Source of the DNA: Ulota crispa | Taxonomy: Eukaryota; Streptophyta; Bryopsida; Orthotrichales; Orthotrichaceae | DNA: 64,000 bases | Assembly (NCBI GenBank): GCA_963920765.1 | Contig: OY987249.1 | Coordinates: 18,510,483-18,574,482 of the forward strand | Reading direction: 5' to 3' | Part shown: positions 2,890 to 64,000 of the stretch, one piece after another | Numbering within the stretch: the first letter of the stretch is position 1 | Layout: each line of letters opens with the position of its first letter | The notes under the pieces: generated by a model | The model's input: the letters and a program-made list of their open reading frames with translations, nothing else | What the model was told of the DNA's origin: nothing | Databases searched by the model: none | Translations under genes and position numbers: made by a program

Positions 2890-3542
2890 TTAACCCCTCA
2901 CCGCCCAAGGGGCCCAAATTGGGCTTCTCTAAATTTTATTCAGAAATGCACAACCTTTTTACAAGATTTTTTTTAGTGATTATTATTATTTTTAAACTCT
3001 TATTGGAGTCTAGTTTTGGCAATAGGAGTTTGATTTTGAAAATGAATTAAAGTGATTTGTCTATTCAAGATTTTGTGGAAGGGTGTCCATTGCAAATCTT
3101 CACTTTCTAGTGTTGAAGGCTCTTGGAAATGAGCTTCAAGTGCATTAGAACTTGGAGAAAAAATCACATTAAAAAATCAATTTAAAAATTGTAGAATAGA
3201 TTTTGAGAAACCATAAATTGATTGGGGTTAAGCATGTTATACTTTACGTACCCATATTTTTTTATTACTCTCAATTTTAGTTTTGAGATGCAAAAAGAGG
3301 ATTGAAAGGCTTCAAATTACTTTCACAGTTTTAACACCCTCATGATCAAACATTATAATTTTTCAATTCATAAATGATATTGTTGTGATTTCTTTTCCTA
3401 TGTGATTTACAACATGTCTACTTTGAATTTATACAATTGCACTCTAAAGAAATTTGATAAGATTAATTAAAATTTTGGCATTTTGTTCATTTTCAAGCAA
3501 ATTCTAAGATAATCCAAACTACCATGGGCGGTGAAGGGTTAA
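2890..3542. mobile_element. TTAA-flanked element, short subfamily (653 bp)
   Basis: Left end TTAA|CCCCTCACCGCCCAAGG, right end CCATGGGCGGTGAAGGG|TTAA. The interior is the reverse complement of 19505-20156, sharing the internal motif CAACAATATCATTTAT. There is no ORF of transposase size. Confidence 0.85.
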
Positions 3543-4545
3543 TGTCATTTGTTGTACAGTACTGGAATCGATCATCAAAAAGGAACTCAGTTTGAAAAGA
3601 AATACCTTTTTAAAGATGGGGTTAATACCGTTAAAATACCAAGTCACTTTACCGCTTGGACTGAGATGCTCCAAAGGTAAGAGCAAAAATGATAAGTAAA
3701 TCTGTTTTGACTTTTTTTTATTAAACTTATAAAAAAAATTTAATACAGTAGTTCTTTATTCAAGCTGGCATTTTGGAAGGCACCAGTGCTCTTCTCGATT
3801 TTCTACAAAGGAGACGCCAGAACTGGGGCATCAAGTTGGAACTTGTACACTTTGACATCTGACGTAAGCTTGTGAGGATTGAGCATTTGTCAAACTTCTG
3901 ATGCTGACTAGAGAATTTTTTTTCTAAGCGATTCATTTGCCACATTCTTACACTAGCTCCTTTCACACCAACAAAATAGTATGAAAAAATGGATAAAAAT
4001 TGTCATATCCTTCACAATGAACATCAGGAGTGTCAAAATTTGGATGAAGCTTATTTATATTAGTAAAGTTGGGGATGAACACGCACACATGGATAATCCC
4101 ATCAATTTTTTCCTTACTTGGATGCATGTTGCTTGACCAATGAAGGAGTAAAAAAAAGTTCCCTAATGCTTACCATTAATAGGAGTCTACTTAGTGATGA
4201 TTGTACCCGTTTGCTTTTAGATATATTTATTATCCCTTGGGGCGTTTTATTTTGATTCTAAGAAATGTGATGGGGACTTGGACCAATGTTTGAAATTTTT
4301 GAAACTCTCCTAATAATTTTACCCATTCACAAATGGGCCATTTCCACCGTGCCGGTTGTCTCGGTTCTGCCCGACCATAGACTAGGACAGTGGCCAGAAA
4401 AACGTGATGGCAAGACACAAATATCCTGCTAGCACAAGCCTACGGCGTGTAGTCGTGTACTTTTGTGCAAACTTACTTTTCAGGCGCGCCTGTGGAATTG
4501 TGGAGAGGGGAGAGAATTGTCAGTGGCTTTGTGTGGACCTGGGAA
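3543..4545. other. Gene-free DNA
   Basis: No recognisable gene or repeat; short chance ORFs only. Confidence 0.3.
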
Positions 4546-5325: not shown

Positions 5326-7712
5326 ACACTACAAATCAAAGCAGATTTTTAGCCTTTGACAATCCCAAAGCTAACATTTGACTGGTTAATATGTTGAAAA
5401 TGGCCTCAAGCCCTTTACACTAGGAGTCAAGGTTATTTTTTCAAAACATGTTTTAATATTTAAATAACAAGATTTGACAAGGATTCCTCAACTTCAAAAA
5501 TTGGGTCTTCTAAAATGTGAAGCCAATTCTTGGCCTCTGGGCCATTGTTAGATTTTATTAGGATACGAACACTTTAAATAAAAAACAATCTTTTGAGATA
5601 TTCAACACCTTAGGATGAAGCAAACATATCAATGGGTCTCCTTCATCTCTTTTTTTTATCCCTTTTCTTTTAAAATTTTCAAAACTTGCTCTAGTGGCCT
5701 CAACCTTTTGGCCTCAGAACCTCTACACACAAGAGAGTTAGCTATTATTATACTCATATAATAGTGGGTGCTTAGGGATGTTCTTGAGGCTATTTATGCT
5801 GGAATTTAGGTTGAAATGACCCCAAATCTTGCCCTAAATGTTCATGGCCTTAACTCCTAGTGTAAAGCAGCCTTAAGAGTTTGATATGGGGATTGCACAC
5901 AACACACGTAACAAAGCCCTTGTTTTGCTGTTACCAAGGTTCTTACTTGTGGCTAAATTGAGACTCATGGCCTCTTTACACTAGTGACTAGAGTTAGTGA
6001 CTAGAGTTAGTGACCAAGCCAATCTAAATGGCATCATTGAAGAAGAAAAGCTAGCTAGTCTAATGCCGCTTTCACTAGTTAAAAAAAAGAAAATGATCAT
6101 GGGCAAAAATGGATGAGAAAGTGACATGGAATCCTACATGTCATAAAGTAGATAGTGTTTCATGGTCAACTGGATTTTGTGATGAGATGCTCTGAAGAGG
6201 TTCTCTAACTAGATTTTTCGAGTGACCAAGCCATCCCAATTTTTTTGATTGGTTTAATTTTGTCAAGGTTTAATGTTGTTTACTTTTAGAATGTTGATTC
6301 ACTATTATTTTATTGTTGCAAGAGTAGTGTTATTGATATGAACACAATTTTTCTATTGAAATGTTGTTTTACTACAATAAATGCATTTTGGTTGTCGGAC
6401 TTTTAGTTTTACCGCAATAATTAAAATCTACTAAATTGTTTATTGTAACAAATGAAGCTCAAAGTGAAGTACATTTAATATCATGTTTTCTTACATCTAA
6501 TTCCATTGTAAAAGCACACCAATATAGTTCCATTGTAAAAACACATTTAGACAATGGCATGGCCATTTACTTTGTAGTTTCTAGTTGACTAAAATTTTGA
6601 TGATAAAATTTTGCAATCATTTTGGTTACATGTCTCCTCCTTTCTTTTTGACATCCAAATTTTTGAAATTGTATTAAGAGCGGTGACCCAAATATGATTT
6701 TCACTTTTAACACAAGTGGCTAAAGCAAATGCTATAAAGCTAAAAGTTTCAAATGTAACACTACAAAGTTTACATTTTTTTTAGCTGTATGAAAATTTTG
6801 TTAGCAATCTTGGGTAGTTGCAAGGAACACTTCACAATTTTGTGTCAAACACCCTTAAAATTGGTAGTACTAGGTAATACTATGAGCTTTTGAAATAATT
6901 TATTTTAAATAAAATAAAATTTGGAAAATTTGTAAAACGCTTAAAATAGCATACTTGTGAAAATCCAAACCTAGAAAAAAATTATTCTAAAAGTTATGCA
7001 CAAAAGTAGAGGGATAGAAATTACCAACAAAAACACAATTTCCTTTTTGTTTTTTAGAAAATAGTAAAAAATCTCAAAAAATTAAAACAAAAATTAGACA
7101 TTTTGGTCCACCATGAGGGGCATTGACGGATGCAAATAACTTTTCAAGAATTTTTGTTTCCAAACCCTAATGCTTGTCCAATGGATGCCCACTTTGAGGG
7201 AAAGTGGAAGGCATGTAATTTACATTTTTCTAAAACCCCTCAACTAATCCGTGTAATGTTCAATGAGGAACAACTCCCCAAATTTGTGGCATCAAATTCT
7301 TTTTTTTTGCCTCAATGCAGTACTGAAAACCCACAAAACAGCCAAGGTAGACATATTATTGGAATCCATTTAAAATTAGTGAATGATTTTTAAAAAAACT
7401 CAAAAAAACACAATAGGTCAATAACTTTAGTGTGAACCTTTCTCTAAATTTTTACGTGAAAAGAAGTTAGTAAGCAAAAGATACACCCCTAAAAACCACA
7501 GGCCGAGTAGCAAAGGGATAGAAAGCAAGACAGGTGTTTTTTGCAACTACCCTCCTGCAAAATTTAGCCAGCTTTAAGAATGTTGATCAAGAGATGAGAA
7601 GAAAAAAAAGAGGAGAGAGTAAAAAAGAGAAAATAAAGAAAAGAGTAGAATATATGACCAAATCTTCAAGGGACTAGTTTGAGTTCAGTTTACAATATTG
7701 AAGGTGACCAAT
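5326..7712. other. Gene-free AT-rich DNA
   Basis: The only structure seen is a 15-bp triple repeat (AGAGTTAGTGACTAG type) at about 5984-6020. No coding region is recognised. Confidence 0.35.
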
Positions 7713-15741: not shown

Positions 15742-16459
15742 ATACCGAGTATTGGGGAGGGCTTTTGGAGTAATAACAATAATGAGTACAAAGACATTTT
15801 GTGAGTCAACATGATTACCATTGTGTTAGCCATCATTTGTTGGTCCAAAGTGCCTTAACCCCTGAATGCCCAAGGGTACCTTTCTTGTTTGTGGAAGGCG
15901 GTTTTGAAGTTTTTGAATTATTGTTGTAAAATCATTATTAAACATCACAACAAATTATAACTATAGGAACTTGATTTTGAGGCTTCTAGATGGTGCTGGC
16001 AAAAGAAAAACTCTAAAAAAGTCATGCAATTTTTAAGATATTTGGGTTTGAATGTGGATGAGTATGGAATTTTGAAGCTGCTCAAAGTTTCTAATGCAAA
16101 AATGGCAATTTTTGTGTACAAAATTGGGAAACATCCACTTATAATGATTTGATGTTTATTGTTTTTACTTCAAACTAATGACTAGTTAACTACCCTTCCA
16201 AATCCATGACCACAATTTCACAAATGAGCCTCCAATACAATTGTCAAAAAGCTACCACCTAATTTAAAGAAACTTTTTTGCTCCAATTATTGACCAAAAA
16301 TTATAAAGACTGAAAAAAAATTCAACAGTGGATGAATTCTAATTTGTATAACAAAGACATTCCGAGTGAAATTGGCCCAAAAGCACATTTACATTTTATT
16401 AGATGATGAATTTTCAATAGAAAGGTCCTCATTGCCTAGGGGGGTGCCCAAGGGAGATC

Positions 16460-17219
16460 ATAACCCCTGAGTGCCCCACAGCCGCGATCTCGTCGCTCAC
16501 AATTGCAGTCGGCATTTTGGGGGACTAGATCTAACTTTTTTACTTTACAATAAACTACAATTATCAAGGTATTCAAGTGGTCCTTGCAAGTGAAGTAATT
16601 GCAAGTCAAGTCAAATGTTGTACAAGTAGCTAGAGAGTCATGATTGCATGGAACACCATATGTGATGAGGTGGCACAAAGCATCTTACAGGCTACAACTA
16701 GTCAATATCCCTTGCAAACTTCCTTCCAATGTGTTTTGTGGTAGCAAGGAATTCACTAGCAAGGGTTCAAACATGTTCTAGACCTTTTTCAAGGTAATTC
16801 TCACCCACTCTACCAGACATCATTTTCTGCGCCATAGCAGTTTGAAGCCCTCAAACTTAGCATTCAAAGAAGTACAATCTTTGATAATTTGCAAGTGAGT
16901 GCATTTACTTTGAATCTTCCTATCCACAAAATTGAGATGAATTGATGGCTTATATAATTTTGTAAAAGTCAACGAATAGCACTTACTAGCCAAAAAATGA
17001 GATTTTGCCATCACTTGTTGTTTGATCAAATGTTATAATCTCCCATCTCCCATGATCAATTGTCCCCAAAGTTTGCAAGCCCTTTTCCAAGAAGGTGTTC
17101 CAATGTTTTCAATGGCCACTTTTTGTGGATCATCCAATTGATTGAGATATGATGTATCAAAGTTGTAGGTCTCCGGAAACCCTCATTTTGATGAAAAACT
17201 CTGGGCGCTCAAGGGTTAA
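16460..17219. mobile_element. TTAA-type element nested in a relative
   Basis: Ends ATAA|CCCCTGAGTGCCCC and GGGCGCTCAAGGG|TTAA. The relative at 60945 is continuous across this point (near 61240), which supports a later insertion. One flanking copy has changed to ATAA. Confidence 0.65.
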
Positions 17220-17411
17220 GTTTTTTCTCAACTTGTTGCCCGTCTTTCCAATTTGGTAACTTGTCATAGATTATTTAGTGACACTATTCATCACACTTTT
17301 TGATGCGTAAGAAGCATGCTTGAAGTTTAGCTTTCACCAAAATAGTTGAAATGTAATATGAAGGACATTTAAATTGAACATTGAAGCTAACTTCAAGCTG
17401 CATCTTCTCCA

Positions 17412-17640
17412 CGCTACAAGAAAAGGGCTTTTTTTGACTAAGACAAATGACAACCAAAACAATTAGGACTTTTGGATTAGTCAAGTGTTAGTTAAGTGTT
17501 TAATTTATGATCACATATAGTCATAAATAATTTAATTTATGACTACATGTAGTCATAAATTAAACACTTGACTAGTCAAAAAATCCTAGTAGTTTATGTA
17601 GTCATTTACCTTAGTCAAAAATGTCCTTTTTCTTTTAGTG
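17412..17640. mobile_element. CACTA-type fold-back MITE with 3-bp duplication CCA
   Basis: Left CGCTACAAGAAAAGGGC, right GTCCTTTTTCTTTTAGTG, arms inverted along most of the 229 bp around a centre with TAATTTATGACTACATGTAG. CCA flanks both ends. Confidence 0.85.
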
Positions 17641-17729
17641 CCAAAAAAATCATAATAATAAAAATCTATAACAAGGTCTCAAAATTTCATGAACACTTAA
17701 CTTTGGTGCCTCAAACATTTAGAGGTTAA

Positions 17730-19504: not shown

Positions 19505-20156
19505 TTAACCCCTAAATGCTCAAGGCTTTTCTGAACTTCTTGGCATTTTCAGGAAAGTGGATAATCAGCCAATCTTTTCATAAATTTCATTGAGTTTTTT
19601 TTAATTGTAACCGTATAAATTTAAACTATACATGTTAGAGATTACATGGGAAAAAAAAACGCAACAATATCATTTATAGTTTGAAAGATTATAATGTTTG
19701 AACACGAGGGTGTAAAAACTGTAGAAGTGACTTGAAATCTTCTAATCCTCATTTCACATGTCAAATCTAAAAGTTGGTCATCAAAAAAATATGAGGTTTA
19801 AGGTCATTACATGTTTAACCTCAATCAATTTACGTTTTTCAAAATCTACTCATGTATGTTTTTTAAATGGATTTCTAATGCGGGTTTTTCTCCAAGCTCT
19901 AGTATATTTGAGGCTCCTTTTCAAGGTCTTCCAACACTAAAAAACTTGAGATTGCAATAAAAACCCTTGTACAAAATCTTGAATAGAAAATTCATGAACA
20001 TTCATTTTCAAAATCAAATTTTTGAAATTGAAAATAAACTTCAAAACAATCTTGTGTTCAAAAGAAAATACCACAAATAGTGATTTGATAAGATTTTATT
20101 TGTCTTCAAAGTTTTGCAAACACCCAAATTGGGTGCCTTGGGCATTTAGGGGTTAA
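19505..20156. mobile_element. TTAA-flanked element, short subfamily (652 bp)
   Basis: TTAA|CCCCTAAATGCTCAAGG at the left, CCTTGGGCATTTAGGGG|TTAA at the right. It is the inverted homologue of 2890-3542, of nearly identical length. No coding capacity. Confidence 0.87.
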
Positions 20157-24562: not shown

Positions 24563-25480
24563 TTAACCCCTAAAATTCTTTTGTGTTTAGAGGCCCAAAA
24601 TTGCTTCAAAATACTAATCCCCAAACCAAGGTCAAATTCTTCATTGAAACTTACTTTTTCACAAATCCAACCATAGGATCCTTTAGTTGACTTGCACAAG
24701 TACATTGTCCCAAAATTTTAGAATGAATATCTCCACCAATTGCAAGATCAATGTGCCTAAACTTCAAAATGTAGATTTTTCTAGTCCTTCCAAGAGGTGA
24801 AGTTTTGATTTTCAAACTTTTAAGAAAAAAACACATATGTTCCATTTCTTGTGCAATTTTTGCTATATGTTGGAAAATGGGTTGAAAGCATATATAAAAA
24901 ATTTGACCAAAAAAATTTGGATTCATTTTTACAAAAATTGTAAAGTGAAAGGTATTGATGAATGAAAGATATAACTAATATGCTAATAAGTTTTGGAAGA
25001 ATCTAAAAATTGTTAATCCCGATGGTGAGAATGCTCTTACAGACAATTAGTAACTTTATTTTTCATTTTCATTTGTAATTTTTCAAAATTGAGAGTAAAA
25101 GATAACTTTATATGTTTTTTCTACCCACTTCCTACCTTCATTGCCTGCAAAAGAAAACTCCTTGTAACTCTTACCTCATTATTTGAAATTGAGTGATCCA
25201 ATTTTTTTTGAGTAGGTGCCAATCTATAAAATTCTATAAAAAAATAAAAATAAAATTTAGAATATAATTTTTGCTGCCTGGCTTGACATTGAAATTGAAA
25301 AAACCTTCTAGCTTTTGCAATACTTATCCAAATGACATGAAATAAAGCTTCACAAGTAGATTATGATGAGTAGCATCCATCCTAAAAATTTCAAGAAAAA
25401 TTTCCAAATTATGAAGTCAATAGAGCTTGCCCGAGTTCTCATAAAGCCCAAAGTGGGTTCCTTGGGCCTTTAGGGGTTAA
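24563..25480. mobile_element. TTAA-flanked element with an identified empty site
   Basis: TTAA|CCCCTAAAATTC at the left, GGGCCTTTAGGGG|TTAA at the right, 918 bp including both TTAAs. The flanks recur at 57626-57945 joined through one TTAA. The largest minus-frame ORF inside is about 91 codons with no similarity I recognise. Confidence 0.9.
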
Positions 25481-28417: not shown

Positions 28418-28651
28418 TAGTTTTTTTGGAGGTCAGGAGGAGAGAGACGGCGCTAGAGAGGGGTGACTAAAGTAGACCTTTCTTTTTATCAAAATATGCA
28501 ATGCTCTTCACCAATTCAAATGATTTCAAATTTTGGCGCCATTGCTCTTATCCAGACGTTAACCCTTAGAAGCTCAAAATCATGCCAGTGTAGCAGTTTT
28601 TTGGAGGTCAGGAGAGAGGAGTGACAAGAGTGGACCTTTCTTTTTATAAAA

Positions 28652-28966
28652 GGGAAAATTTCATGGATACCCCTGAAGTTTGCAATACTTTCATAGATAC
28701 CCCTACTTTTTCAGAAATTTCACAAATACCCTTGGACCAAAATTTCAAGCGTTTTTTTGTTGTGCATGTCATGTCCCTTCTCCCTTTGTGTGTACACTAC
28801 TTCTTTCTTGTTATGCATGCGCACAAAGAAAGAAGAGAAGTGACATGCACAACAAGAAAAACACTTGCAAATTTTAGTCCAAGGGTACGTATTTATGAAA
28901 TTTCTGAAAAAGCAGGGGTATGTATGAAATTATTGCAAACTTTAGGGGTATCCATGAAATTTTCCC
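28652..28966. mobile_element. GGGAAAATTTCATGG fold-back MITE, 9-bp duplication
   Basis: GGGAAAATTTCATGGATACC and its mirror; the arms pair across most of the 315 bp. Flanks TTTATAAAA and TTGATAAAA; the paralogous empty site reads TTTATCAAA at 28485-28493. It ends 209 bp before the BURP start codon. Confidence 0.92.
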
Positions 28967-29175
28967 TTGATAAAAATATGCAATGCTCTTCACCAATTCA
29001 AATGATTTCAAATTTGGCGCCATTAGTCGTTTTCGATCCATAAGTTCTTGGTTTTTTTGGCGGTTGATTGAAACTTTGTCCATTTCATAGTCACTTGCTG
29101 TTTTTGGATTTCAATGAAGCCTAAGGAGTGATTCTGTTTGTATTTGAAAAATGACAGGCGGAACAGATACACACA

Positions 29176-32100
29176 ATGGCGGCAAATACCACAAGGCTTA
29201 TGATGCTCTTCCTCCTCGTTGTAAGTTGAATGAATTGCCGGTGCTTCCGGAATAATTGTTTTTGTGTCGTCTTTTATTAAGTTTTCTAAATTTGAAATGA
29301 AGCGAAGCGCCGGTGTGGTGGTGGAGTTTGTAGTTATTAACTTAGTTGCTGGAAAACAGGATATTCATGATCTTTTCTAAATTGTGTTTTTGATTGGCTT
29401 GTTTTGATTCTGTTTAAGAATTCTTTGTTCTTAAGGTGTTACTGTATGTCTTTAAGATGAAAATGTTTGAAGAAACGTTTGAACTGATGCTGAAACGGAG
29501 GTTGGAGAAAGAGAGGGCATTTCAGTGACGGAGGTTGTTTATGGAAAATAGGATGTTCTTGATTTCATGATCTTTTCTGGATTTTGTTTTTTGATTAACT
29601 TACACTGAGTGTGTTTGTTTCGATTCGGTGGAGGAATTCTTTGTTCTTAAGGTGAAAGTGAAGGTATATAAGATGAAAAGGTTTGAAGAAATGTAAGTTT
29701 GAATTGATGCGGAAACGGAGATTGGAGAACGAGTGTATTGAGTGACGGAGGTTGTTTAAAATACATGCGCAGGGAGTAGGAGTTTTGGTTATTAACTTAG
29801 TTGATGGAAAACATGATGTTCTTGATTTCACGATCTTTTCTAAATTGTGTTTTTGATTGGCTTACACTATGTTTGTTGCGATTCGGTTTAGGAATTCTTC
29901 GTTCTTAAGGTGCAACTGTATGTATATAAGATGAAAAGGTTTGAAGAATTGTAAGTTTGAATTGATGCTGAAACGGAGATTGGAGACTGAGTGTATTGAG
30001 AGACGGAGGTTGTTCAATTCAGGTGCAGGGAGTAGGAGTTTCGATTCTGCTTAGGAATTCTTTGTTCTTAAGGTGCAAGTGTATGTCTATAAGATGAAAA
30101 CTTTGAGGAAGTGTTTGAACTGATGCTGAAACGGAGATTGGAGAACGAGTGTATTGAGTGACGGAGGTTGAATGTTTGACACTTGCGCAGGGAGTAGGAG
30201 TTTTTGCTGTTGATGGACAGAAGACAAATGGAGGACGGAATCAGGCAAAGAAGGTCACGGACGCGAAAAATTTGGCGGGCGTCGCGATGCCGGCCATTTT
30301 GATGGACCACGCATCCCCGCTCGACACGAATGCGGCTTCAGCGTACGCCGCAAAAATCAACGACGGCTCTCTGGCGCAACACGCCAAGGATTTCTGTGCG
30401 GAGGCGAAGCTAATGTGTGACGCGGATGCGCCTCTACTGGACCCGACCTTGGACATCTCATTGAAGAACTTGCTGGAAGGGGGAAACCTCCTCGAGCGGG
30501 CGAAGGCGATCGTGGACGCCTCGAAGGCGATGTTCTTCGACGCGAAGGAGCTCGTTGTCGGAAAGGACATCAAGATGCCAGCAACTCTTCGTGATCAGTT
30601 TCCGACAACCTCGTTTCTGCCGGAGTCGCTCGCCTCGAAGCTCATGCCGTTCTCCGGCGATAAAATCGCGGAGCTCCTGCAGACGCTCAACATCCCGCCG
30701 AACTCGAACCTGGCGGTGATGATGTCGCGAACATTAGCTCAGTGCGACGCAAAAACTACAGCGATTAAGACTGAGGAGGCGTCCGGCAAGTGCGTCACTT
30801 CGATGGAGGACATGACTAAGTTTGTGGCCGGTCGCTTTCCTCAGACGGACCGCGTTGATGCTCTTCAGCGTACCAACCCTGCTACTACTGGTACGTCACT
30901 TCGCTGAGCTCTTTTTTTTCTCGTGTTTGAACATCTGCTGCTAAATGACGATGCACATTCAAGCTAAGGAGGACAAAACATTCCTGTTCTTCCCATTTTT
31001 TCGTTTGCGTTCTTGGTTGCGGTGTTTCTTAATCGGTCCTTAAAAAATACTTTGCTGATAAGCTGCAAATGCTCACACAAAAAACAATTGAATGACATGT
31101 AAAATTCAAATTGTTGCTGAACTTGTGGCCCGACAACAAAATGTTCCGGTTCTTACATTTTTTTCGTTTGCGTTCTTGGTTGCCTTTCACTTCGGTGTTT
31201 CTTAACTTCGGTTCTTAAAAGATTTTGCTGATAAGCTGCAAATGCTCACACAAAAAAACCTAAATGACATGTAAAATTCAAAATTGTTGCTGAACTTGTG
31301 GCCCGACAACAATAAACATTCCGTTCACCTGTCACCAAGCTGAGCAAGCTGGAATATGCTTTTTCCTAATTGGAAACCGTATATAGCAAACCGTTGATGC
31401 TCTATGAGACTAAATTGCTGGATAACAGGATGACCTTGGTTTCGCGAGTTTGCAATTGCTTTTTTTGATTGCCTTATTCTGGTTGTTTGATCGATTCTGT
31501 AATTGAAATACTCGGTCTGTTCTTAAGCTGAGAATTGAAAGCAAAAGATCTTAAAAACATTAAAAAGCGTTGTAATTGTTGCTGGATTAATTGCTGGAGC
31601 ACGAAAATACTCTCTCTTCTTACTACCGAGCGCTGCTTTGTCCATTTTGCTTGTTGTCAAATATTTATAATAAATTGATAGGGCCAATTGAAGTGGCATC
31701 TCGACTTGAGGAACATTGATGTTGGAGTAAGTATTCGAGTCCACAGACGCACAGGACTCCGCCGCACGAAATTGTGATATAATCCCCTGTAAAGGAATCA
31801 ACTGCACTCACGAGACGACTATGTGCGTGCCGGGGTACATTGTGGCAGATTCTGCGCCTTTGAAAACGGGAATCTCGACGTTCAAGGTGCTGGACGTGCA
31901 GGAGTATTCGCACTCGGTTGTGTGCCACAAAAACATGTTCCCCTTCGCAGTGTACGAATGCCACAACATGGATGCCACCAAGAACAAGAACGTGCAAGAC
32001 AACATGAAAATCTACGCGGTGTCCATGGAGTCCCACGAAAACGGCCGACGCATGAACCAAATTGCGTCCTGCCGTGCAGCCGACGCCGTTGAACGGGAGA

Positions 32101-33025: not shown

Positions 33026-35416
33026 ATGGCTGTCCAGCAACCAGTGAAGCGCTTGTCGTCTCTCTTGTGCTGCAAGATCTACATCTCCGACACTTGCAAC
33101 GCGGTTTCGTTGCAAGAAATTGAGTCCACCTTCCGCACACATCCCAAGGCTCCTCTTCTGCAAGTATTTGAAGACCGCGAGTACAATCGTGTGGGCTACA
33201 CTCTTGCAGGTAACTCACAGCTCTGTTCACCTCTGATTTTTCCCAAGCTCGAATTTTTCAGCTTTTTGTACATTTCACGGTCACCTATCCTTCGGTCATT
33301 CCAGAACTGCAGCTATAAACCCCTTGCTAACTTCATTTAAAACCCTACGGTAAAAAGCTTCAGTTGGTTATTGCAACATCAATTCTGAAAATTAGAATGT
33401 GAGTATTGGCTTGTTAGCAGGGCTTCTTTCGTAATTTTCCAACAAGCTCTCGTTCATACTATATGAACCGCAAATGAGCAAAATATCTTGAAAAATCAAA
33501 CTTCTTGTTGGTTCTTCACGTAGTCTGCTGTCATACTATTCGCGTGCCTCCAATTTCTGGTTGCGATTTCGATATTTTTAGTGAGCTCATTAGGAGCATA
33601 ACTCCCGGAGCTGTTTCAATACTTGAATAAGTTTGAGCACAAAATCTTCATGGAAGATTTTGAGTGAAAGCATGAATGTTTGAGGCCTAGAGCACGCTTG
33701 AGAACAAGAATCAAGCAACCGTGTCTTCTCGAGAGCCACTGAAAGGAACCTTATCCTGTCTGTGCAGGCGCTCTCTCTGCTCCCGAAGCTCGCACCACAA
33801 GGATCCCGCTTCTGTCGGCGGTCGCAGATGTTGTGCGGACGGCATTGCACACCATTGATCTGAGGCAGCATTCTGGAAGCCATCCCCGGTTAGGAGTTGT
33901 AGATCACATATGCTTGCATCCGCTGGGAGCAGCGAACATCACGGACGCATCTGCGGTTGCACAAGAGATTGCTTCCGAAATCGGTGAAAAGCTCAAAGGT
34001 TCGTCAATCCTCTTATTTTCGAAAATCTCTTCAGGGTGGAGCAGTACTTGGGGTAACAGCACCGTGGTAGTGGATTTCAAACATTGTTGACTATGATGCA
34101 TTCCCTGGTGAAAGTTTTCAGCTCTATAGTGCAAGACACCATAAACAACAAATTTAATGACCAAAAACGTCAAAGAATTGCAGACTTTGAATGCCGATAA
34201 CTTTTTTTGGCAAACGATAGTTCCAATCTGTTTTTGTAACTTCATGCTAAGACCTTCCAGCTTATAGTTACAAAGCGTTTCAAACTTATGAAGGGGGTGC
34301 TATGAATAGCTCATATGGTTGTTAGGTCTTTGTTGATTTATGCTTTCATGCACCGCACAGTGATAGACTTGGTGTGAATGGTACCCCGCTTCGATACTCA
34401 CAGCAACTAGAACCAATTGTTGGTGGTTTTACTTGGCTTGAGCAAAGCATTGACTAGACTTCTTAACTACTGTATAATAACATAATTACCCACTTAGGGT
34501 CCTCGACGTTTCTCTGAATGATGTGACTCACGAATTCATCCGGTTCCTAGGGTGCTCAAGAAGCCGGACTTGGTTTGAAATTGCCGTTACGGATCGTTCA
34601 AACATCGGCTACTTAAGCAAGGGTTTTAACGTTCACAAATCGACCTGCTTATTAGTTGTTTTTTCTTCAATTGTTTTTCAGGGGTTTGTTTGGTTTTGGG
34701 AAAATTTCATGGATACCCCTGAAGTTTGCGATATTATCATAGATACCCCTGCTTTTTCAGAAATTACACAAATACTCTTGGACTAAAAAAATTCAGGCGT
34801 TTGTTTGTCGTGCATGTCACTTCCCTTTTTCCTTTGTGCGCATATTGCTTCTTTTTTGTTTCATTGATTCCCTTCTTCTGTTGCAGTTCCGACTTTCTTA
34901 TATGGCGATGCGCATCGAAGCAGACGGCCATTGGACGACATTCGGCGTGCGCTGGGCTACTTCCAACCAAACAACAACGGCCTCTGGATTGGGTCGAACG
35001 TGTTCCCTGCCAGCATGCAACCGGACTTCGGCCCATCCCGAGCACCGCCCGGCAGCGGAGTGGCGGTGGTGGGGGCGTGCCCGTGGGTGATGAACTACAA
35101 CGTGCCGTTGGAATCCACGCGGGCGGACTTGGACTTGGCCCTGGCGAAACGCATCGCCAGGAAAGTGAGCCAGCGAGGTGGCGGCCTCGCCAAAGTGCAA
35201 GCCATGGCCTTGCTCCATGGCGCCCACTGCATCGAGATCGCTTGCAACTTGCTGGACACGCACGTCTCCAGTCCTGACGCCGTGCAACACTTGGTTGCCA
35301 CGCTGGCAGCGAAGGAGGGCATTCGAGCCTCTGGCGGATACCTTACCGGCTTTTCCAACGACGAAATCTTCTCCTTGGCCTCGGAGAAGCTCAATGCTTT
35401 TGAAGACGCGCCTTAG
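33026..35416 (+). CDS. Formiminotransferase-like protein (FTCD N-terminal family), 3 exons
   Basis: Exons 33026-33209, 33768-33998 and 34887-35416 give 314 aa. The protein matches the formiminotransferase part of FTCD (glutamate formimidoyltransferase), which moves a formimino group between folate and glutamate; there is no cyclodeaminase part, as in the plant homologues. Visible landmarks are CCKIYISDT at the start, FEDREYNRVGYTL, LRQHSGSHPRLGVVDHICLHP (the family's catalytic-His segment), VPTFLYGDAH, DFGPSRAPPGSG followed by GACPWVMNYNVPL, RIARKVSQRGGGLAKVQAM and a C-terminal GYLTGFSNDEIFSLA. The ATG at 33026 is preferred; an in-frame GTG lies 6 nt upstream. Intron 2 ends in half of a MITE that reaches the acceptor, and another element begins right after the stop codon. 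The plant substrate is uncertain. Confidence 0.9.
34698..34880 (+). mobile_element. Half copy of the GGGAAAATTTCATGG MITE, ending at the exon-3 acceptor
   Basis: Only the left half of the fold-back element is present: terminus GGGAAAATTTCATGGATACC, then the internal landmarks TGCATGTCAC and GTGCGC in the usual order. It aligns best with the full copy at 62279-62599 up to the shared pyrimidine stretch TCCCTTCTTC, a few bases from the AG at 34885-34886. No right terminus or target duplication remains. Confidence 0.75.
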
Positions 35417-51132: not shown

Positions 51133-51250
51133 GCTGATTATTTCATATCTTTTACTTTGCCTTATAATGATTTTGCGTTTTGTTATCTGACTTTGGCTTA
51201 TCCATTTTCACTGTAAGGGGCACGTTACACTACTATAACACTTAATCTAA

Positions 51251-51562
51251 GGGAAAATTTCATGGATACCCCTGAAGTTTGCCATATTTTCATGGATACC
51301 CCTGTTTTTTCAGAAATTTCATAAATACTTTTGCACCAAAATTTTTAGGTGTTTGTTTTGTTTGCATGTCATTTTCCTTCTTCCGTTGTGCACATGCATA
51401 ACAAGAAAGAAGTAGTGTGTGCACAAAGGGAGAAGGAAGTGACATGCACAACAAAATAAATGCATGAAATTTTTGGTCCTAGGGTATTTGTGAAATATTC
51501 AAAAAAGCAAGGGGTATCTATGAAAATATGGCAAACTTCAAGGGTATCCATGAAATTTTCCC
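51251..51562. mobile_element. GGGAAAATTTCATGG fold-back MITE beside tRNA-Arg
   Basis: 312 bp, ends GGGAAAATTTCATGGATACC and mirror. Flanks TTAATCTAA and TTACTCTAA agree at 8 of 9 positions. It begins 118 bp downstream of the tRNA gene. Confidence 0.92.
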
Positions 51563-52097
51563 TTACTCTAAATGTATTGGGACCAATAGTGAGATGAATT
51601 TGAATGTCATAATAAATTTTGATGAACATAACCAGAGAAGAGATTCCCTTAGGGATTGTCCATGTCATGTTCCACATCCCACTAAATTTGGGTTGAGAGC
51701 CAAAAAGTTTGGATTTTGCAATTCACGTTATGTTTCAAGTCCTAGTTCACTACATTTTGCTTACATAACATCATATTTTAAAAGTTTTTGTGACAAGAGG
51801 GTGGAACTTCACTCAAGGTTTGGATCAACCATTTTGCTCAACCCAACACTTCAACTCAAGTCTCACCAACTTTTTTGTATAAAAGATTCAATGAATTATT
51901 TTAATGTTTCCCTTTGCCCTTAATAACCTAACAAAGATGGGATCTTGCATTGAGGCGAGGCTTTGCAAAGATGGGACTAGACATAATGTGAATCACGTCT
52001 AAGAGCATTCAACTAAAAAGGAGAGGATAAAGAGAAGAGAAGAAGGGTAGGGAGAAGGGATTGGTCAATGAAAATGTTCAAAGAATGTTTTGCTTTG
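51563..52097. other. Gene-free DNA
   Basis: No recognisable coding region or repeat. Confidence 0.3.
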
Positions 52098-53033
52098 TTA
52101 ACCCCTAAAGGACCAAGCCCTTTTTTCAGTGAAAGTTTCTAAAACTGCCATTTTTGGGGAAATGAGTAGAAAGGTAGGAAAAGCAATTATTTTTGGAAAT
52201 CCAACTATAAGATGTTGCCCTAGATTATGGGAGGTACTTGTGGGAAAAAAATCAGCTCATTCTAGATGGTGAGGAGTGAGATATTGACATTTGAAGTGAA
52301 AAAAAAAGTTTTTTTCCCTATTGCCCAAAAATTTCAGAACCCTTTGATTGCCCCTAAATCAAAAAAATTGCTCTACGCAAAGTTGAGGTTTATTTTTTCC
52401 ATGTAGAAGCCCAAGTTAGGTAAGTGGGAGAATTTTCAAATGAATTGGAGGTGTGAATCATACTTTGTAAAATCTTGCAATGCTGTAAGGCCATCAAATT
52501 TGGAAATACACTAGGCAAAATTGGAAGATTTATGTAAAATTGAGAAATATGAATAACATTGATCCAAATGGTGAAAAACAAGGAATCTTAGTCTACTACA
52601 ACTTGGAAAAAAAAGAAGTCAAAAAACAAATTCACAAAGAGCACAAAAAAGTAAAGTACCAACAACAATAGAAAGGAATTATGGGAGTCTCATACCTGCC
52701 CGCAAACTAAAACTTTTCACTCATAAATCCAAATTGAATGATTCAAAACTCCCCACATATATATAAATCTAAAGAACCAATTTCAGATTTTTATTTTGAA
52801 AAAAAATTATTTAAAAAAAAGTTTTTGGCTGCCTGATCTCGCATGTTTTCAAAAATTCATGCATAACTTCTTCAATATTTGTCGGAATAAAGGAAAAATT
52901 AGATGCCCATGCAGATTTTTGAATTCCCCATCTTCAATAAAAGTTTCAAAAAATCACATAAAGTAGTTTAGCCATAGGTACATGCCCGAAATCCCATTTG
53001 CCCCCATAAGAACAATGGTCCTTTAGGGGTTAA
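52098..53033. mobile_element. TTAA-flanked element (936 bp)
   Basis: TTAA|CCCCTAAAGGACCAAG at the left, TGGTCCTTTAGGGG|TTAA at the right. The interior is the reverse complement of the element beginning at 63176 (GGGATTTCGGGCATGTACCT, GTTATGCATGAATTT). Confidence 0.88.
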
Positions 53034-54842: not shown

Positions 54843-56096
54843 TCATATGCTGCTCATCAGTGCAGCGGCATTTACGTTGTTTGTGATGAGTCGATGATGT
54901 GATGGGTCAAAGACTGGAAACTCTACGGAGCCCTTGCATTCGGTACTAGGAAAGATGGGGCAGTTAATGAGAGTAGATCCGTCTTTGGCAACGCAGATCC
55001 AAACTTGGTAGATTTGTCTGTTACCCTTGGCGTCCTTGTTGCAGTCAACTCCAGGAAGATGGCCATCAATTGCAGTGCTGATCGCTTTGCGAACTGCCTC
55101 AATTTCATAATGCTTGCCGTCTGGAACTATTCCTGCAAGAACATACATATGACATCGATTGTAAAGTTCGAACTAGCTTCAACTGGAGATTCTTGAAAAC
55201 GATCACTGCCAGTATCATTCTGGTAAATTCAAAGAGAATCTTTTTCAAAAAGAATAGACTAAAACATTTACCCGCATTCGCAAGGGCAGCAGTAACATCG
55301 TATTTGATGTACAGGTCGAGGGCAGCCTGAAAGTAGCCACGTTGGCCTAGTCCTGAGCAAGTGCCATGCTTCGTCCATTCATGCTTCCAGAAAGTATGAC
55401 TGTCACTTGAGGGACAAGCCAGTGAACCCCAATCGTCGTCCATATCGTCTATCACATCCGCCACCTGCAGTGAAAGACAATGCAGCACATGTCAGTAAAA
55501 AATCAAACAAATGGAAACAAAAGAAAGTCCAATATGACCTATGATGCCTCTCGGTCCTTTTAGTAGTTTACAATACCAGCATCTCAACTAACAACACGAG
55601 CCTCTTGATTTTATTATACCTTGTAGAGAATTATTGATGTGAATTTTTTTGAATGGAAAAGGTGTGGAGCGGTGTGATACCTCCTTAGGGTTGAAAGGTT
55701 CTTTGTCGCAGAACTGAGGCCAAGAGCCGTCATCGTAATCGGGCCAGAGGCCATGAATACCAAACACCGCCTTAGGTTTACTGCTGATTGGAAAACAGCA
55801 GCCCCTCCTTGTATCACAATATGAACCTGGCCACTGCTCGAATCAACCAATCGAAATATCAGCTTGAAAAGTAGAAGCATGCCTCAAGCTGCTTATCACA
55901 TTGCTTTCTTCTCTCAGCTCTCTCTTCCTATAAGGGCATTAAAGCTAAACATGAAGGAAAACGAAGGATGTAGGGCAAAGAATGGCGCGCGCACCTGTTG
56001 CACGAAATAGAAGAAGTCAAAATCCTTTGAGGCCTGCACTACTGAACCGCAAATGACGCTCCAAGCAAGCAACGCCAGTACCACTACGGAAGTCAT
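54843..56096 (-). CDS. Secreted S-like ribonuclease T2, 4 exons
   Basis: Exons in transcript order are 56096-55995, 55833-55681, 55464-55272 and 55132-54843, giving 245 aa. The signal peptide occupies about residues 1-22. FFYFVQQWPGSYC is the typical mature start. CAS I is FGIHGLWP with His61; CAS II is FWKHEWTKHGTC with His113, Glu114, Lys117 and His118, so all catalytic residues are present. Cysteines at 40, 46, 47 and 102 and in the C-terminal half (VDCN, WICV, INCP, TECK) fit the family disulfides. The enzyme cuts RNA through a 2',3'-cyclic phosphate and acts in the vacuole or apoplast, often in phosphate recovery, senescence or defence. The lack of any self-incompatibility context favours the S-like class. 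Confidence 0.95.
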
Positions 56097-58284
56097 CGCC
56101 GTTGTCTCTCTTTTGCAAGCCCTAACAAGCCTGATCCGTTCGTCAAATGCAGATATAGAGTTCTTGAACCGTAAGCAAACAGAGCACCGCTCAAAACCTT
56201 ATTCCTTCGAATTCGCACGATGTTCTTTTGTGATGCACAAAACACGCAATGCAATGCAAGTCAAGGCCATTCTTTTCCGTTCAAGACCTCGGCAGCCGCG
56301 ACGCCTCTGATCTCATCTCGTAGTCGAATTGCACTAACTCAGCCAGAACTTGAAAACACTCAAATCTTTCTCAGGATTTCGAAACTCACCAGCGAATTCG
56401 TTGTTGTTGTAAAAGGCAGATGCTTAATAACTCGAAAACTTTCCGATAAACGCGTAGATCTCAGCGCAACTGGAGAGCCGGTCGAAATGTAAGAGAACTG
56501 CCGCCCTGACGAGAATTACCGCATGATTGTCCACAAATGCAGCTTCAACATGAGTTGAGAAACGGTGTCATCGTAGATGCCAAGGAAAGATTCCAGCGTG
56601 CCACTGCAGCAAAGGCAAAGCGAAGTGTTCAGGAAACTGGGGAAAGAAGCAACAGCAACAATCTTTAGTGTGGTAGTGTGAACGGGTCTCGTGAGACGGA
56701 GTCACGAAGTTCATCCGTGGATGAACGTGGTGGATGGAAAAACGTAACTTGTTCTGGAGCGTAATGAGGTCATTGCGCTTTGTGCGTAAGCTTACTTGGA
56801 TAATTTGCTTGGGACTTGAGGTACATTTATTTTACAAGGATTTACCAATGGTCATTTAAATGTATCAAATAATTTAAACAACACAAAATACATAAACATT
56901 GCTTGAACAAAATTCTTTGCATTTTTGGTGGTCCTCATCAATACCTTAAATGAGATTGTTTGTTTGTTTGGCATATTGAGATCTCCCAAACTATGTGTTC
57001 TCTTGTCACGTGCTAGATATTGTTGGAAAGCTCTCAGCCATGAGGGGTGCATGGGCTTGGTTTTGTGATATATGGGCCTACGGTGAAAAAGTTATTGAAA
57101 TTTGAAAATTTTCATGGATTAAAATTTTAAAATTTACTTTTGTTTTTATTTTGGTGGCGTTCTTGGTATTGTTGGAAAGCTCTCGCCAAGGAGGGGTGCA
57201 CCAAAGCATGATTTAATCAAGATTAAAATTGGGCCAATAGCACAGGGCCACACTAGTACTTGTGAACATAACAACAAAAATTGCGAAGTGGTGTCACATT
57301 ACATTACGCCACTCTTACCACTAAAAAGGAATGTGTGACAATACTTTGTTCAAACAATAGTTACACAAACTAAGGACCTCACACACAAACAATGTCATGT
57401 TTGCACCATTAATTACTCAAGCTCTGCCCTTATTCCTAGTGACTTAATTGTGAGAATGGCATTGCATGAGACCCTTACCCTACACATAAAAAAACCTTAA
57501 TTTATCTTCTAATTTTGCTTGTTGGGAGTAATGTCTATTCCAATAGTAAGATAGCTGCATCCATAAGCGTTGTGTCCCCATGACCGTTACTTAACAATGG
57601 CAGAGGCTAATCAATAAGAAAACAAATGGTTGTGGGTGACTGAGTGATGGTTATGGATGATGAAGTGATGGTTGTGGGTGGCTAGCATGAGGTTTTGAGT
57701 ACCCATCTCACTATTTAAGAACCAACAAGTCTTATTTTTAGCATCTCTTACACATGATTCTTACAATTTCAATGATTTTGGACTTTGAAAAATCCTTGTG
57801 AACAAATGCTTGTAGTTGAAACTTTAAAATTGATGCCAATATTTTTGGTTTCCACTTCCTAACGTACAGTATTTCAAAATTAGTCAATTGCTTTACCTAC
57901 TCCAAAACCCTTATGTCCACGCTTATGGGTGCGCCTACCTTATCCAGAGTAAGATCCCCCACCTTAGTTTGGTGGGCAGCCATTGCAACAGAAGAACATT
58001 TCGCTACCAGAAGTTTTTTAGTCCAGCAGAATTCGGTTATAGAAGAAGACTCACGCGGTGACAGGCCGTCTCCTTATCCACTTACACTACGCTCATCACC
58101 GTGACTTGGAAGAAGCTCTGCCAGTGTGCTTTGCTGCAACAAGTCCAGATTAGACGTTTTGTGGCATCGCCTGTGATCTCAAGCCCCAGTAGCTCTTAAA
58201 ACTCCTGATTTCGGTGTTCCTTCACATATGCCAAGCATTAGGGTTTAGGGTTTTAGCAAAACCTCGGCTTCGAAATCCGCCGCG
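56097..58284. other. Gene-free DNA between the RNase T2 and CRM genes
   Basis: The RNase promoter lies at the left edge on the minus strand. From 57626 to about 57945 the sequence duplicates the two flanks of the TTAA element at 24563-25480 without the element (single TTAA at 57715-57718). A short direct repeat (GTTGGAAAGCTCTC...GAGGGGTGCA) lies near 57024 and 57170. No ORF of note. Confidence 0.45.
58236..58256 (+). promoter_or_regulatory. Telo-box upstream of the CRM gene
   Basis: TTAGGGTTTAGGGTTTT lies about 30-50 bp before the start codon. Telo-boxes of this kind are common near the transcription start of plant genes for translation and organelle biogenesis, which suits the product. Function is inferred from the motif. 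Confidence 0.45.
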
Positions 58285-60944: not shown

Positions 60945-62080
60945 TTAACCCCTAAATGCCCAAGGCACCAAAATTTTGGTGTTCAGGAAACTTTGAGACC
61001 TTGCTGAAGGCAAATCTATTTGAATGTTAAACAAATTTGAAGTTAGCTTCAATATCAAATTTGAATGTCCTTCATACTAAATTCCAATTATTTATTTTTG
61101 GTGGAAGCTAAACTCTAAACATGTTTGATGTGCACAAAAAAGTGTGCTGAAAATTGTCAAAAAAAATGTGCTGAAATTGTCTCTAAAGAGCTTATGATAA
61201 GCTACCACTTTGGAAAAACATGTACCAAGTTGAAAATAAAGTCAAAATCTCTCCTTGGGCAATGAGGGGCTTTATTGAAAAGTCCATATCTAATAGAACT
61301 TAGATGTGTTTTTGTGCTACCTTCACTTAGGATTTCTCTTTTATAGGAATCATAATCAATTCACTATTAAATTTTCTTTATTCATGATGGTTTTTGGTCA
61401 ATAATTGGAGCTAAAATTTCTTTGTGAGTTAGGTGGTAATTTTTTGATGGTTGCATTGCAAGGTCATTTGTGAAATTGTTGTCATTGATTTGGAAGGAGA
61501 ACCATTAGTTTTGACTAAGCAACAATAAATACCAAATTGTTGTAAGTGGTTGTTTTCCTCTTTTGAACACAAAAGCTCCCATTGTGGCATAACAATTTTT
61601 GGGTGATTGCAATAAAAACAATAAATTAACATTTTAACATTTGTGTAAGGTAGGAGGCTTGAAAATTGTCCAGGCTCTAAAACCGCTCACCCTCTCAAAT
61701 GTACTCTTCCTATACATGCTTTTTTTCATAGGTTTCCAAAATGTACAATTACTGTACATTTGAGGAGGTGAGCAGTTTTAGAGCCCTATGCCACTTTAGC
61801 TTCAAATTCTCATAACTAATTCCACAAAACTCCAAAAAATATGAAATAACTTGAGTTAGATGCCAATTCTTCTTGTCTTTCAAGAAAAATTTACTAAAAA
61901 TATTTCAAGAAGTTCTACCTCCCCAAAATTCAGTTTCAACCCTTAGATAGTCGGTTTATGAGCCTCCTACCTTAACTTTTATGAATATTTTTCAGCACCA
62001 CCACCTAGAAGCCTTGAAGTTCAAAATCGTACGGTTACAATTTTATTGCAATGTTTAATAATGATTTCACAACTACAAAG
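60945..62080. mobile_element. TTAA-type element, long subfamily, right end lost
   Basis: TTAA|CCCCTAAATGCCCAAGG at the left. Homology to the reverse complement of 15855-17729 runs to about 62080 (AATGTTTAATAATGATTT), where it stops before the terminus. A TA-flanked element is nested at 61648-61972. Confidence 0.7.
61648..61972. mobile_element. TA-flanked nested element (AGGTAGGAGGCT ends)
   Basis: TA|AGGTAGGAGGCTTG at the left, AGCCTCCT|TA with intervening ACC at the right, and a central palindrome (ACCGCTCACC...CAAATGTAC, GTACATTTG...GGTGAGC). It is homologous to the repeat after the formiminotransferase stop codon. Confidence 0.7.
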
Positions 62081-62278
62081 CACGTGGAACTGAAGATGGC
62101 TATGCGTGTCTGGATAAGCTAATCCGTGAGTAGGATCAAAGGTGGGGAACCCATTTCCGTGACTTGTATTTCAGTGGGCTTAGAATGACTTTTAACGTGA
62201 GTCTTTTTTTTTTTGTCCTATTTTGAAGAGGACTTTTAACACACTAAATTGCATTTTCTTAAGATGCTATTTTATAAA

Positions 62279-62599
62279 GAGAAAATTTCATGGGTACCCC
62301 TGAAGTTTGCATTATTTATATAGATACCCGTGCTTTTGTAGAAATTGCACAAAATACCCATGAACCAAAAAAATTAGGCTTTTGTTTGTTATGCATGCTA
62401 TTTCATTTTGTTTTTGTGCGCTCGTTGTTTCTTTTTAATTTCATTACACTCCCTTCTTCAACATTGGTCATGAAAGAAGTACAAGCACAGCATGAATGCT
62501 TAAAAATTATGGTTCAAGGGTATTTGTGCACAATTCTCGAAAAAGCAAGGGTATATATGTAAATATTGCAAATTTCAGGGGTATCTATGAAGTTTTCCC
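62279..62599. mobile_element. GGGAAAATTTCATGG family MITE, right-hand copy
   Basis: GAGAAAATTTCATGGGTACC at the left, GAAGTTTTCCC at the right, 321 bp. Flanks TTTTATAAA and TTATATAAA agree at 8 of 9 positions. Confidence 0.88.
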
Positions 62600-63175
62600 T
62601 TATATAAACAAACGGCCTTTCTACAAGAGGGTTTACATGTATTCTTGTAGCTTTAGGTTTAGGTTTTGTCCTTGTAGCATTGACTTGCTTTTTAAGTAAG
62701 GTATCTATTCAAACTTTCTTAAAATGATTTCACTCCATCCAAAGCTTCCTCTGTTACAGCATGTACTTTTGAACTATGAAAAAAATTGCTTGTGGACAAA
62801 TATAATTGTAAACAACATTTGTTCTTGAGTTTGTTGTATACTTGCATATTCAATTCCACATTGCATTTATGAGTCACCATTGCTCCACCTATAATACAAA
62901 AATTGTTTCTAACATATCTCTACCAAAGGTCTAACTTGTTATGGAAATAGGATCTTCTAATGAAATTATTGGTTCTAGAAGAAAAAATTGCAGAGACTTT
63001 TTGATTGCCAATATGTATACAAAGAATTATCTTATTAATATACACATACAATCTACATGGAACCCTTCCACTTGGCATCCATGTTATTTTGTACGATGCA
63101 CATGGACAAGAGAGATAGAACCTACTATAATGGATGGGATTCATCTAGTACCTCTAGGTGGTGGGCTCCCAATCC
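62600..63175. other. Gene-free DNA
   Basis: No gene or repeat recognised. Confidence 0.3.
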
Positions 63176-64000
63176 TTAACCCCTAAAGGACCAATGTCCC
63201 CTTGGGGGACAAATGGGATTTCGGGCATGTACCTATGGCTAATCTACTTTTTGTGATTTTTTTAAACTTTTATATAAGGTGGGGAATTCAAAGATCTACA
63301 TGGGCATCAAAAAATTTCTTCATTCCAACATTTGATGAAGAAGTTATGCATGAATTTATGAAAAACAGTGCTCAAGGGGCAACCAAAAACTTCTTTAAAA
63401 ATTTCTTTTTTTTCAAATAAAAATCTGAAATAGGTTCTTTAGACTTATATAGACGTGGGGAGCTCTGAACCATTCAATTTTGAAAGATGAGATGAAAGTT
63501 ATGAGGAGTTTTTGTTTACGAGCAATTCTAGATTCTCTACTCTAAAATAAACTTTGAAGTCCTTTATTTTACTCAATTTTCAATATTTTGAAAGAAAAAA
63601 AAAAAAAACCAAAGGATGTAGATTGTTTATCACAACATTATGACCATTGAGATTTGCGTTTTTCATTTTTATAATTAAATTCTTAACAATTTAGTGTTTT
63701 GACTCATTCTCTACTTCTTTTTACTTACTATTTTTTCCCCATGTGTTGTATAGTTCCAATTGATTTGAAAATTCTCCCACACATACCTAACTTGGTCTCC
63801 TACATGGGAAAAATAAACCTCAACTTTGTGTAGAGTAATTTTTTTGCTCTAAGAGTGGTCAAAGCCTTCTGAAATTTTTTTGTAGCAGCAAAAGAAAACT
63901 CATTTCTGCAATTCAAATGTAAATATCTCACTCATTTTTGTGTAGATTGAGCTGAATTTTTTAATACATGTACCTCATGTAGTCTACTATAAGATCTTAT
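63176..64000. mobile_element. TTAA-type element cut by the window edge
   Basis: TTAA|CCCCTAAAGGACCAATG, then homologous (inverted) to 52098-53033 through the rest of the window. An 81-codon ORF ends just inside it and is not meaningful. Confidence 0.85.

Follow-up and report, generated by a model that had tools for sequence, protein, structure and literature searches.

Short TTAA-flanked elements of probable piggyBac type in the genome of the moss Ulota crispa

Elements of the window and their copies in the genome

The DNA analysed was a stretch of 64,000 nucleotides from the moss Ulota crispa (contig OY987249.1), referred to below as the window. It contains a set of short elements with CCCCTNA at the start and TNAGGGG at the finish, C-rich at the 5′ end and G-rich at the 3′ end as in piggyBac. 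The elements, and one site without an insertion, are listed here; all are on the plus strand.

24563–25480, plus strand: 918-bp non-autonomous element (MITE type), very probably a piggyBac; both TTAA counted; recognised from its sequence, its terminal inverted repeat, and empty host sites
57626–57945, plus strand: empty target site in a copy of the host repeat, with a single TTAA at 57715–57718
2890–3542, plus strand: 653-bp element; left end TTAACCCCTCACCGCC, right end read inward TTAACCCTTCACCGCC
15855–17729, plus strand: element whose left end is clear; its right end, with one mismatch (TTTAGAGGTTAA at 17729), is doubtful; holds the nested relative
16460–17219, plus strand: nested relative of 760 bp, with ATAA as its left tetramer and TTAA on the right
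19505–20156, plus strand: 652-bp element with TTAA at both ends
52098–53033, plus strand: 936-bp element with TTAA at both ends
60945–61269, plus strand: element with TTAA on the left; the right-type end at 61269 has CTTT after it in place of TTAA
63176–64000, plus strand: element with a left end, leaving the window at 64000

The preliminary description of this DNA had placed seven left ends at 2890, 15855, 19505, 24563, 52098, 60945, and 63176; when the window was read again, TTAACCCCTNA was found at exactly these seven positions. An exact TNAGGGGTTAA right end closes the elements at 19505 (to 20156), 24563 (to 25480), and 52098 (to 53033), and the same sequence with one mismatch closes the element at 2890 (to 3542) and the nested relative at 16460 (to 17219). 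TTAA had been reported at all visible ends of the elements. It is present at both ends of 19505, 24563, and 52098; the right end of 15855 is doubtful, 60945 has TTAA at one end, and the right end of 63176 lies beyond the window. The nested relative, also described earlier, is present with TTAA on its right and ATAA on its left. What looks like a right end at 61269 may be part of a different element from the one at 60945. The 24563 copy has a perfect 12-nt terminal inverted repeat of which TTAA forms part. At the left end of its family (window positions 24563–24600) there is also an inner terminus-like motif, TTTAGAGGCCCAAA, approximately 17 bases in, which aligns with the terminus of one of the transposase-bearing loci, L050. 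No transposase was recognised in the window in the preliminary description.

The window also holds part of a ribonuclease T2 family gene (55105–55488, minus strand; PF00445, E 8.2e-17) and a separate repeat family with members at 28641–28976, 34698–34860, 51248–51565, and 62270–62608. In this family CCCCTGAAGTTTGC is preceded by GGATA or GGGTA, not by TTAA, and the members at 28641 and 51248 match their own reverse complements at 80–82% over their length.

The abundance of the elements was determined in the genome (274.8 Mb). The terminal pattern TTAACCCCTNANNNCCCAAGG occurred 1,921 plus 1,958 times (3,879 ends), compared with 0 occurrences of the reversed pattern, and is thus far in excess of chance. 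A looser end pattern, TTAACCCCTNANNNNCC, occurred 13,167 plus 13,142 times (26,309 in all), compared with 37 plus 33 (70) for its reverse. If each element had two such ends, this would correspond to an estimate of about 13,000 elements; many elements, though, have an alteration in one end or a right end of another kind. For the 918-bp family, the best 40 of 1,280 candidates were scored as matches with 91–100% identity, the window copy included, and eight copies, again including that of the window, had pairwise identities of 93.1–95.1% (mean 94.1%).

Transposase genes and their relation to the short elements

A search of the genome with the PF13843 (DDE_Tnp_1_7) profile gave 120 matches at about 116 places or more, the best with an E value of 1.3e-73; 116 of 528 candidates were scored, and every match listed was above the cut-off. 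None of 14 control genomes, one of which is named as a cyanobacterium, gave a match, which demonstrates that the search is specific and says nothing about absence of the family from plants. Stops were found inside 110 of the 120 matches, and several of the 10 stop-free ones were partial; most of the transposase copies appear to be broken now. All seven open frames that were tested against Pfam matched PF13843 alone (E up to 0.001). When one frame was compared with the PDB by phmmer, the only matches with E up to 0.01 were the piggyBac transposase 6x67 (4.1e-20) and piggyBat 9c0f (5.8e-17).

The catalytic residues of piggyBac are D268, D346, and D447 (excerpt of PMC7351741). Among the 17 transposase loci scanned, L051 (C2:34592500-34598500) had the motifs ITVDE, VTDNFFT, and MKGVDIVDQ together in one stop-free frame, so that the DDD triad appears, as judged from these motifs, to be complete in this locus alone; the other 16 had two or fewer intact catalytic motifs by patterns that are blind to frameshifts, and L052 had N in place of the third catalytic residue. 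A cysteine-rich motif, corresponding to the C-terminal domain expected of piggyBac, was found in 9 of the 17 loci (including L047, where a stop lies inside the motif) and was absent from 216,656 bp of control sequence; cysteine-rich domains are discussed for piggyBac-related transposases in PMC8086355. In L051 one stop lies between the transposase domain and this motif, and no TTAA element ends were recognised in the 6 kb around the locus.

The preliminary description had proposed a search for a longer copy encoding DDE_Tnp_1_7, and the search was positive. In L049, on contig C3, TTAACCCCTCATCGCC at 263 and an inward-facing TTAACCCTTCATTGCC ending 5,027 bp further on enclose a PF13843 match. 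This 5.03-kb element has the termini CCCCTCATCGCC and CCCTTCATTGCC, the same kind of ends as the short elements, and a second copy on contig C10 (L057 plus L048) is 90% identical to that on C3. The similarity between the two copies stops within one base of the terminal tetramers, which are TTAA and TTAA in one copy, and TTCA on the left and TTAA on the right in the C10 copy. Thus, the DDE_Tnp_1_7 transposase occurs in elements of the same type.

Two further loci, L050 and L081, are copies of a second transposase family, with 67–77% identity over four collinear stretches, among them the transposase and the final 810 bp. Their left ends were looked for and not located, and the terminal tetramer of L081 is altered. 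A repeat just outside the right end of L050 reappears 160 bp outside that of L081; because it is also found inside the window element 15855, it is read as a separate dispersed repeat. Within L050, positions 3872–4471 consist of a tandem repeat of 4-bp units (matches shift by 4). In L054 together with L083, TTAACCCTTGCACGTCC and TTAACCCTTGCATGACC lie about 7.5 kb apart with a transposase between them, in one copy only. The left ends assigned to L052 and L054 (in L082 and L083) have one copy each as their basis. One transposase family is carried by a 5.0-kb element, present in two copies, whose ends are of the TTAA and CCC(C/T)T kind; other transposases lie beside one such end.

An alternative explanation is that the short elements and the piggyBac transposases are unrelated, the short ones having been mobilised by another enzyme. 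In its favour, no long element was found that could be the direct parent of the 918-bp family, and 2890 and 16460 clearly match the transposase-bearing loci only in their outer 20 nt or so. The 20 nt after the left TTAA of 2890 have 3 mismatches to the left end of the 5.0-kb element in L049, and the 20 nt inside the right TTAA of 16460 have 1 mismatch to an end in locus L084; beyond the outer 25 bases the similarity is at best marginal, with 1 to 3 of 200 shuffles scoring as high in the best cells. The ends of other short elements argue against independence. The terminal 590–655 bp of L077, L078, and L080 match the L050 and L081 right ends at 75–82% identity and up to the same end; L078 and the right end of L081, for example, are 82.4% identical over 655 bp. 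Of 43 matches to L050, 37 end at most 5 bases from position 5437, where the right end of L050 lies, and 22 of these 37 stop precisely at that position.

Similarity was also found at the left ends of two window elements. Two stretches in the left 250 bp of 52098 have counterparts, in unchanged order, at the right end of L050. After removal of the outer 25 bases, this left end had a score of 136 with L050, compared with a mean of 52.7 for shuffled sequences, and the left end of 24563 had a score of 112, compared with 63.9; none of 100 shuffles scored as high in either case. The same result, 0 of 100, was obtained in 7 of the 72 cells of the comparison, two with the left end of 24563, two with that of 52098, and three with the right end of L078, one of these three being the unexpected pairing of L078 with L052. 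For eight copies of the 918-bp family, which are related and not independent, the left ends scored above 200 of 200 shuffles against L050 in seven copies and above 199 in one, and above at least 193 of 200 against L081 in all eight. Against the right end of L078, 1 to 32 of 200 shuffles scored as high. The best alignment of the 918-bp left end with L050 is shifted by approximately 17 bases from the terminus, and the right ends of the family score like shuffles against the transposase elements. A link between 24563 and a transposase-bearing element is thus supported by the alignments, as a distant one at one end only, and the assignment of this copy to piggyBac follows mainly from the target rule and from termini that it has in common with transposase-bearing elements. 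Because that rule and the CCC(C/T)T ends are common to both groups, and because of the long shared termini and the scores above shuffles, we consider it highly unlikely that the two groups are unrelated.

An even slimmer chance is left to the possibility that Kolobok-type transposons made these elements. The TTAA duplication by itself would fit them, and Kolobok elements, with 5′-RR and YY-3′ termini, have been reported in red algae and one green alga (excerpt of PMC9587614). The termini here are CC..GG, and PF13843 is what the long element with ends of this kind encodes; Kolobok was rejected on both of these grounds.

Length and sequence of the target duplication

An empty site for the 24563 copy had been described within the window. 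The two flanks of this copy do occur joined, at 57626–57942, where the sequence is 92% identical to one flank and 89% to the other. With this empty copy as the query, the host repeat was searched genome-wide, which gave 42 rows, two being additional short fragments. The repeat was uninterrupted at the site in the best 40 of 2,365 candidates, among which is the window copy; because the scoring prefers uninterrupted copies, this demonstrates many empty copies and not a rarity of filled ones. All 13 empty copies that were read, 12 plus that of the window, contained a single TTAA. A second, weaker case was found at L006, for which partly similar counterparts without the insertion contain TTAA (L004) or TCAA (L010), over 66 bp at 77–79% identity. 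In L038 (1501–1600) the right side of another TTAA element meets the same host repeat as 24563 (GAACCAACAAG), also at this TTAA, and the left flank of that element is unmatched; a second insertion at that site, followed by rearrangement, is possible.

At TTAA sites, a duplication of TA by elements that begin with A and end with T, with a preference for TTAA, would be indistinguishable by sequence from a duplication of TTAA. Such elements would be of the Tc1/mariner (Stowaway-like) type. For this reason, ends without TTAA were examined. Ends of the same pattern that do not begin with T numbered 243, compared with 3,879 with TTAA (a count that excludes ends beginning with T other than TTAA), and 19 loci (L058–L076) were picked by hand among the first 100 of the 243. 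Three of the five loci picked for CTAG (L063, L064, and L065) had CTAG at both ends, and L061 and L062 had no matching second end; a further CTAG pair is present at C3:11471604/11472233 among the 100 ends listed. Of the two loci picked for ATAT, one, L076 (C1:31304189/31305108), had this tetramer on either side; the other, L066, showed a single end. Six copies of the L076 host repeat were found without the insertion, two in L036, three in the window, and one in L002, all of which read GGTATATT with one ATAT each. In total, 20 rows of paired ends were read: 8 with TTAA/TTAA, 3 with CTAG/CTAG, 1 with ATAT/ATAT, and 8 unequal, including one artefact (L059). The other picked loci were left out of the alternative targets, because their opposite end carried TTAA or some different tetramer, or because the pattern revealed no second end.

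The tetramer ATGC, seen at 3 of the 100 ends listed, was rejected as a target, since what precedes L059 and L060 is CCCTAAATGC, in which the terminus itself is repeated in tandem; L058 has the same repeat at its right end. In these loci (L059 1–60, L060 1–60, and L058 990–1030) the terminal 11 bases are doubled in tandem (CCCCTAAATGC CCCCTAAATGC), perhaps by slippage or faulty end processing.

Because of the CTAG/CTAG and ATAT/ATAT insertions, and the single ATAT in the empty sites of the latter, we conclude that the duplication is four bases, not TA. With a TA duplication, both terminal bases of an element would have had to change jointly at each of these insertions. The CTAG and ATAT insertions refute a Tc1/mariner (Stowaway) TA duplication, which retains hardly any credibility. 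The duplication is TTAA-specific, apart from rare insertions at CTAG or ATAT, and 4 bp long as in piggyBac, the length being given by the CTAG and ATAT cases, and the earlier claim that TTAA is a target duplication and not part of the terminal repeat is upheld by these cases together with the single-TTAA empty sites.

Interpretation and comparison with known systems

That animal piggyBac DNA contaminated a plant assembly is a negligible possibility, even with animals as the best-known hosts, because the transposase matches are spread over contigs C1–C11, the short elements lie on large contigs and are nested in host repeats, the genome encodes PsaD, and the window encodes a BURP-domain protein (30158–30907; PF03181, E 1.9e-17), which we take to be a member of a plant-specific family. 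For a 93-residue piece of PsaD, the top hit was 9vfj (2.7e-100, summed over three repeated stretches with 109–111 bits each), followed by 7ksq, 8htu, and 6l35 (1.5e-54 to 8.2e-54, 183–185 bits), structures from the moss Physcomitrium, and by a further chain at 2.5e-51; this order of hits suggests a moss.

We are confident, with little room for doubt, that the short elements are non-autonomous (MITE-type) piggyBac cut-and-paste transposons in a land plant. The piggyBac assignment in the preliminary description had been made without a transposase; it gains support from the PF13843 transposases in the same genome, the shared ends, and the single-TTAA empty sites. PiggyBac-type transposases from such long elements would have recognised the shared termini, cut the short elements out, and joined them into TTAA sites by DDD chemistry. 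Transposition of this kind would have multiplied several short families.

The preliminary description had treated piggyBac as a superfamily known mainly from animals and some other eukaryotes, and not from land plants. The last point was too strong, since plants are named in passing as piggyBac hosts (excerpts of PMC8086355 and PMC10813416). PiggyBac is included among plant DNA transposon superfamilies in a review (PMC10794571, in part), and a fern repeat table has 1,230 PiggyBac entries totalling 122 kb (PMC6890710, in part). In a chromosome-level moss genome, terminal-inverted-repeat transposons are dominant, with CACTA the largest part, and the word piggyBac is absent from the portion of that paper available (PMC11704416). 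An apparent moss report (PMC10619864, in part) was rejected because its two matches are the word "piggybacking". In the literature covered, largely without subscription papers and preprints and judged mostly by title and the start of the abstract, no description of moss piggyBac elements, or of MITEs belonging to them, was found. The kind of element is thus already known; the host and the scale are what is new and notable, thousands of short piggyBac copies being unusual in a land plant.

A wider reading, plausible but tentative enough that we stop short of favouring it, is that several distinct piggyBac lineages, resident in this moss for a long time, gave rise to one of the largest non-autonomous piggyBac amplifications known (about 10,000 elements), with relaxed targets (TTAA, CTAG, and ATAT, in which the outer bases are complementary), and that some intact catalytic frames without element ends were perhaps adopted by the host. 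PiggyBac is a widely used tool for genome engineering, and animals are its best-known hosts. Several transposase lineages and thousands of short derivatives in a land plant would be a source of transposases adapted to plants. They would also document target choice as it occurs in nature, and would allow descent to be tested against horizontal transfer as the origin of plant piggyBac. If plant repeats are annotated without a piggyBac class, elements of this kind would be classified wrongly.

Among known systems, Kolobok has the TTAA duplication in common with these elements and differs in its 5′-RR/YY-3′ termini and its transposase (PMC9587614, in part). PiggyBat (9c0f) belongs to the same superfamily (E 5.8e-17) and is a distant relative, with an alignment that runs through the third catalytic region. 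Its termini differ from those described here. The piggyBac element of Trichoplusia ni (IFP2; 6x67) has a DDD transposase alike by sequence (E 4.1e-20), and its termini, like those of the moss elements, begin with CCC. Its integration is TTAA-specific, as here (excerpt of PMC7351741). IFP2 is 2472 bp long (excerpt of PMC10803768), whereas the transposase-bearing elements delimited in this plant host are 5.03 kb and perhaps, in one case, 7.5 kb long. The moss also differs in its large non-autonomous families and in having some CTAG and ATAT targets. The piggyBac MITEs of animals are short, flanked by TTAA, and without coding capacity, like the elements described here; in contrast to them, the present elements have a land plant as their host, and in its 275 Mb a single end pattern occurs 26,309 times.
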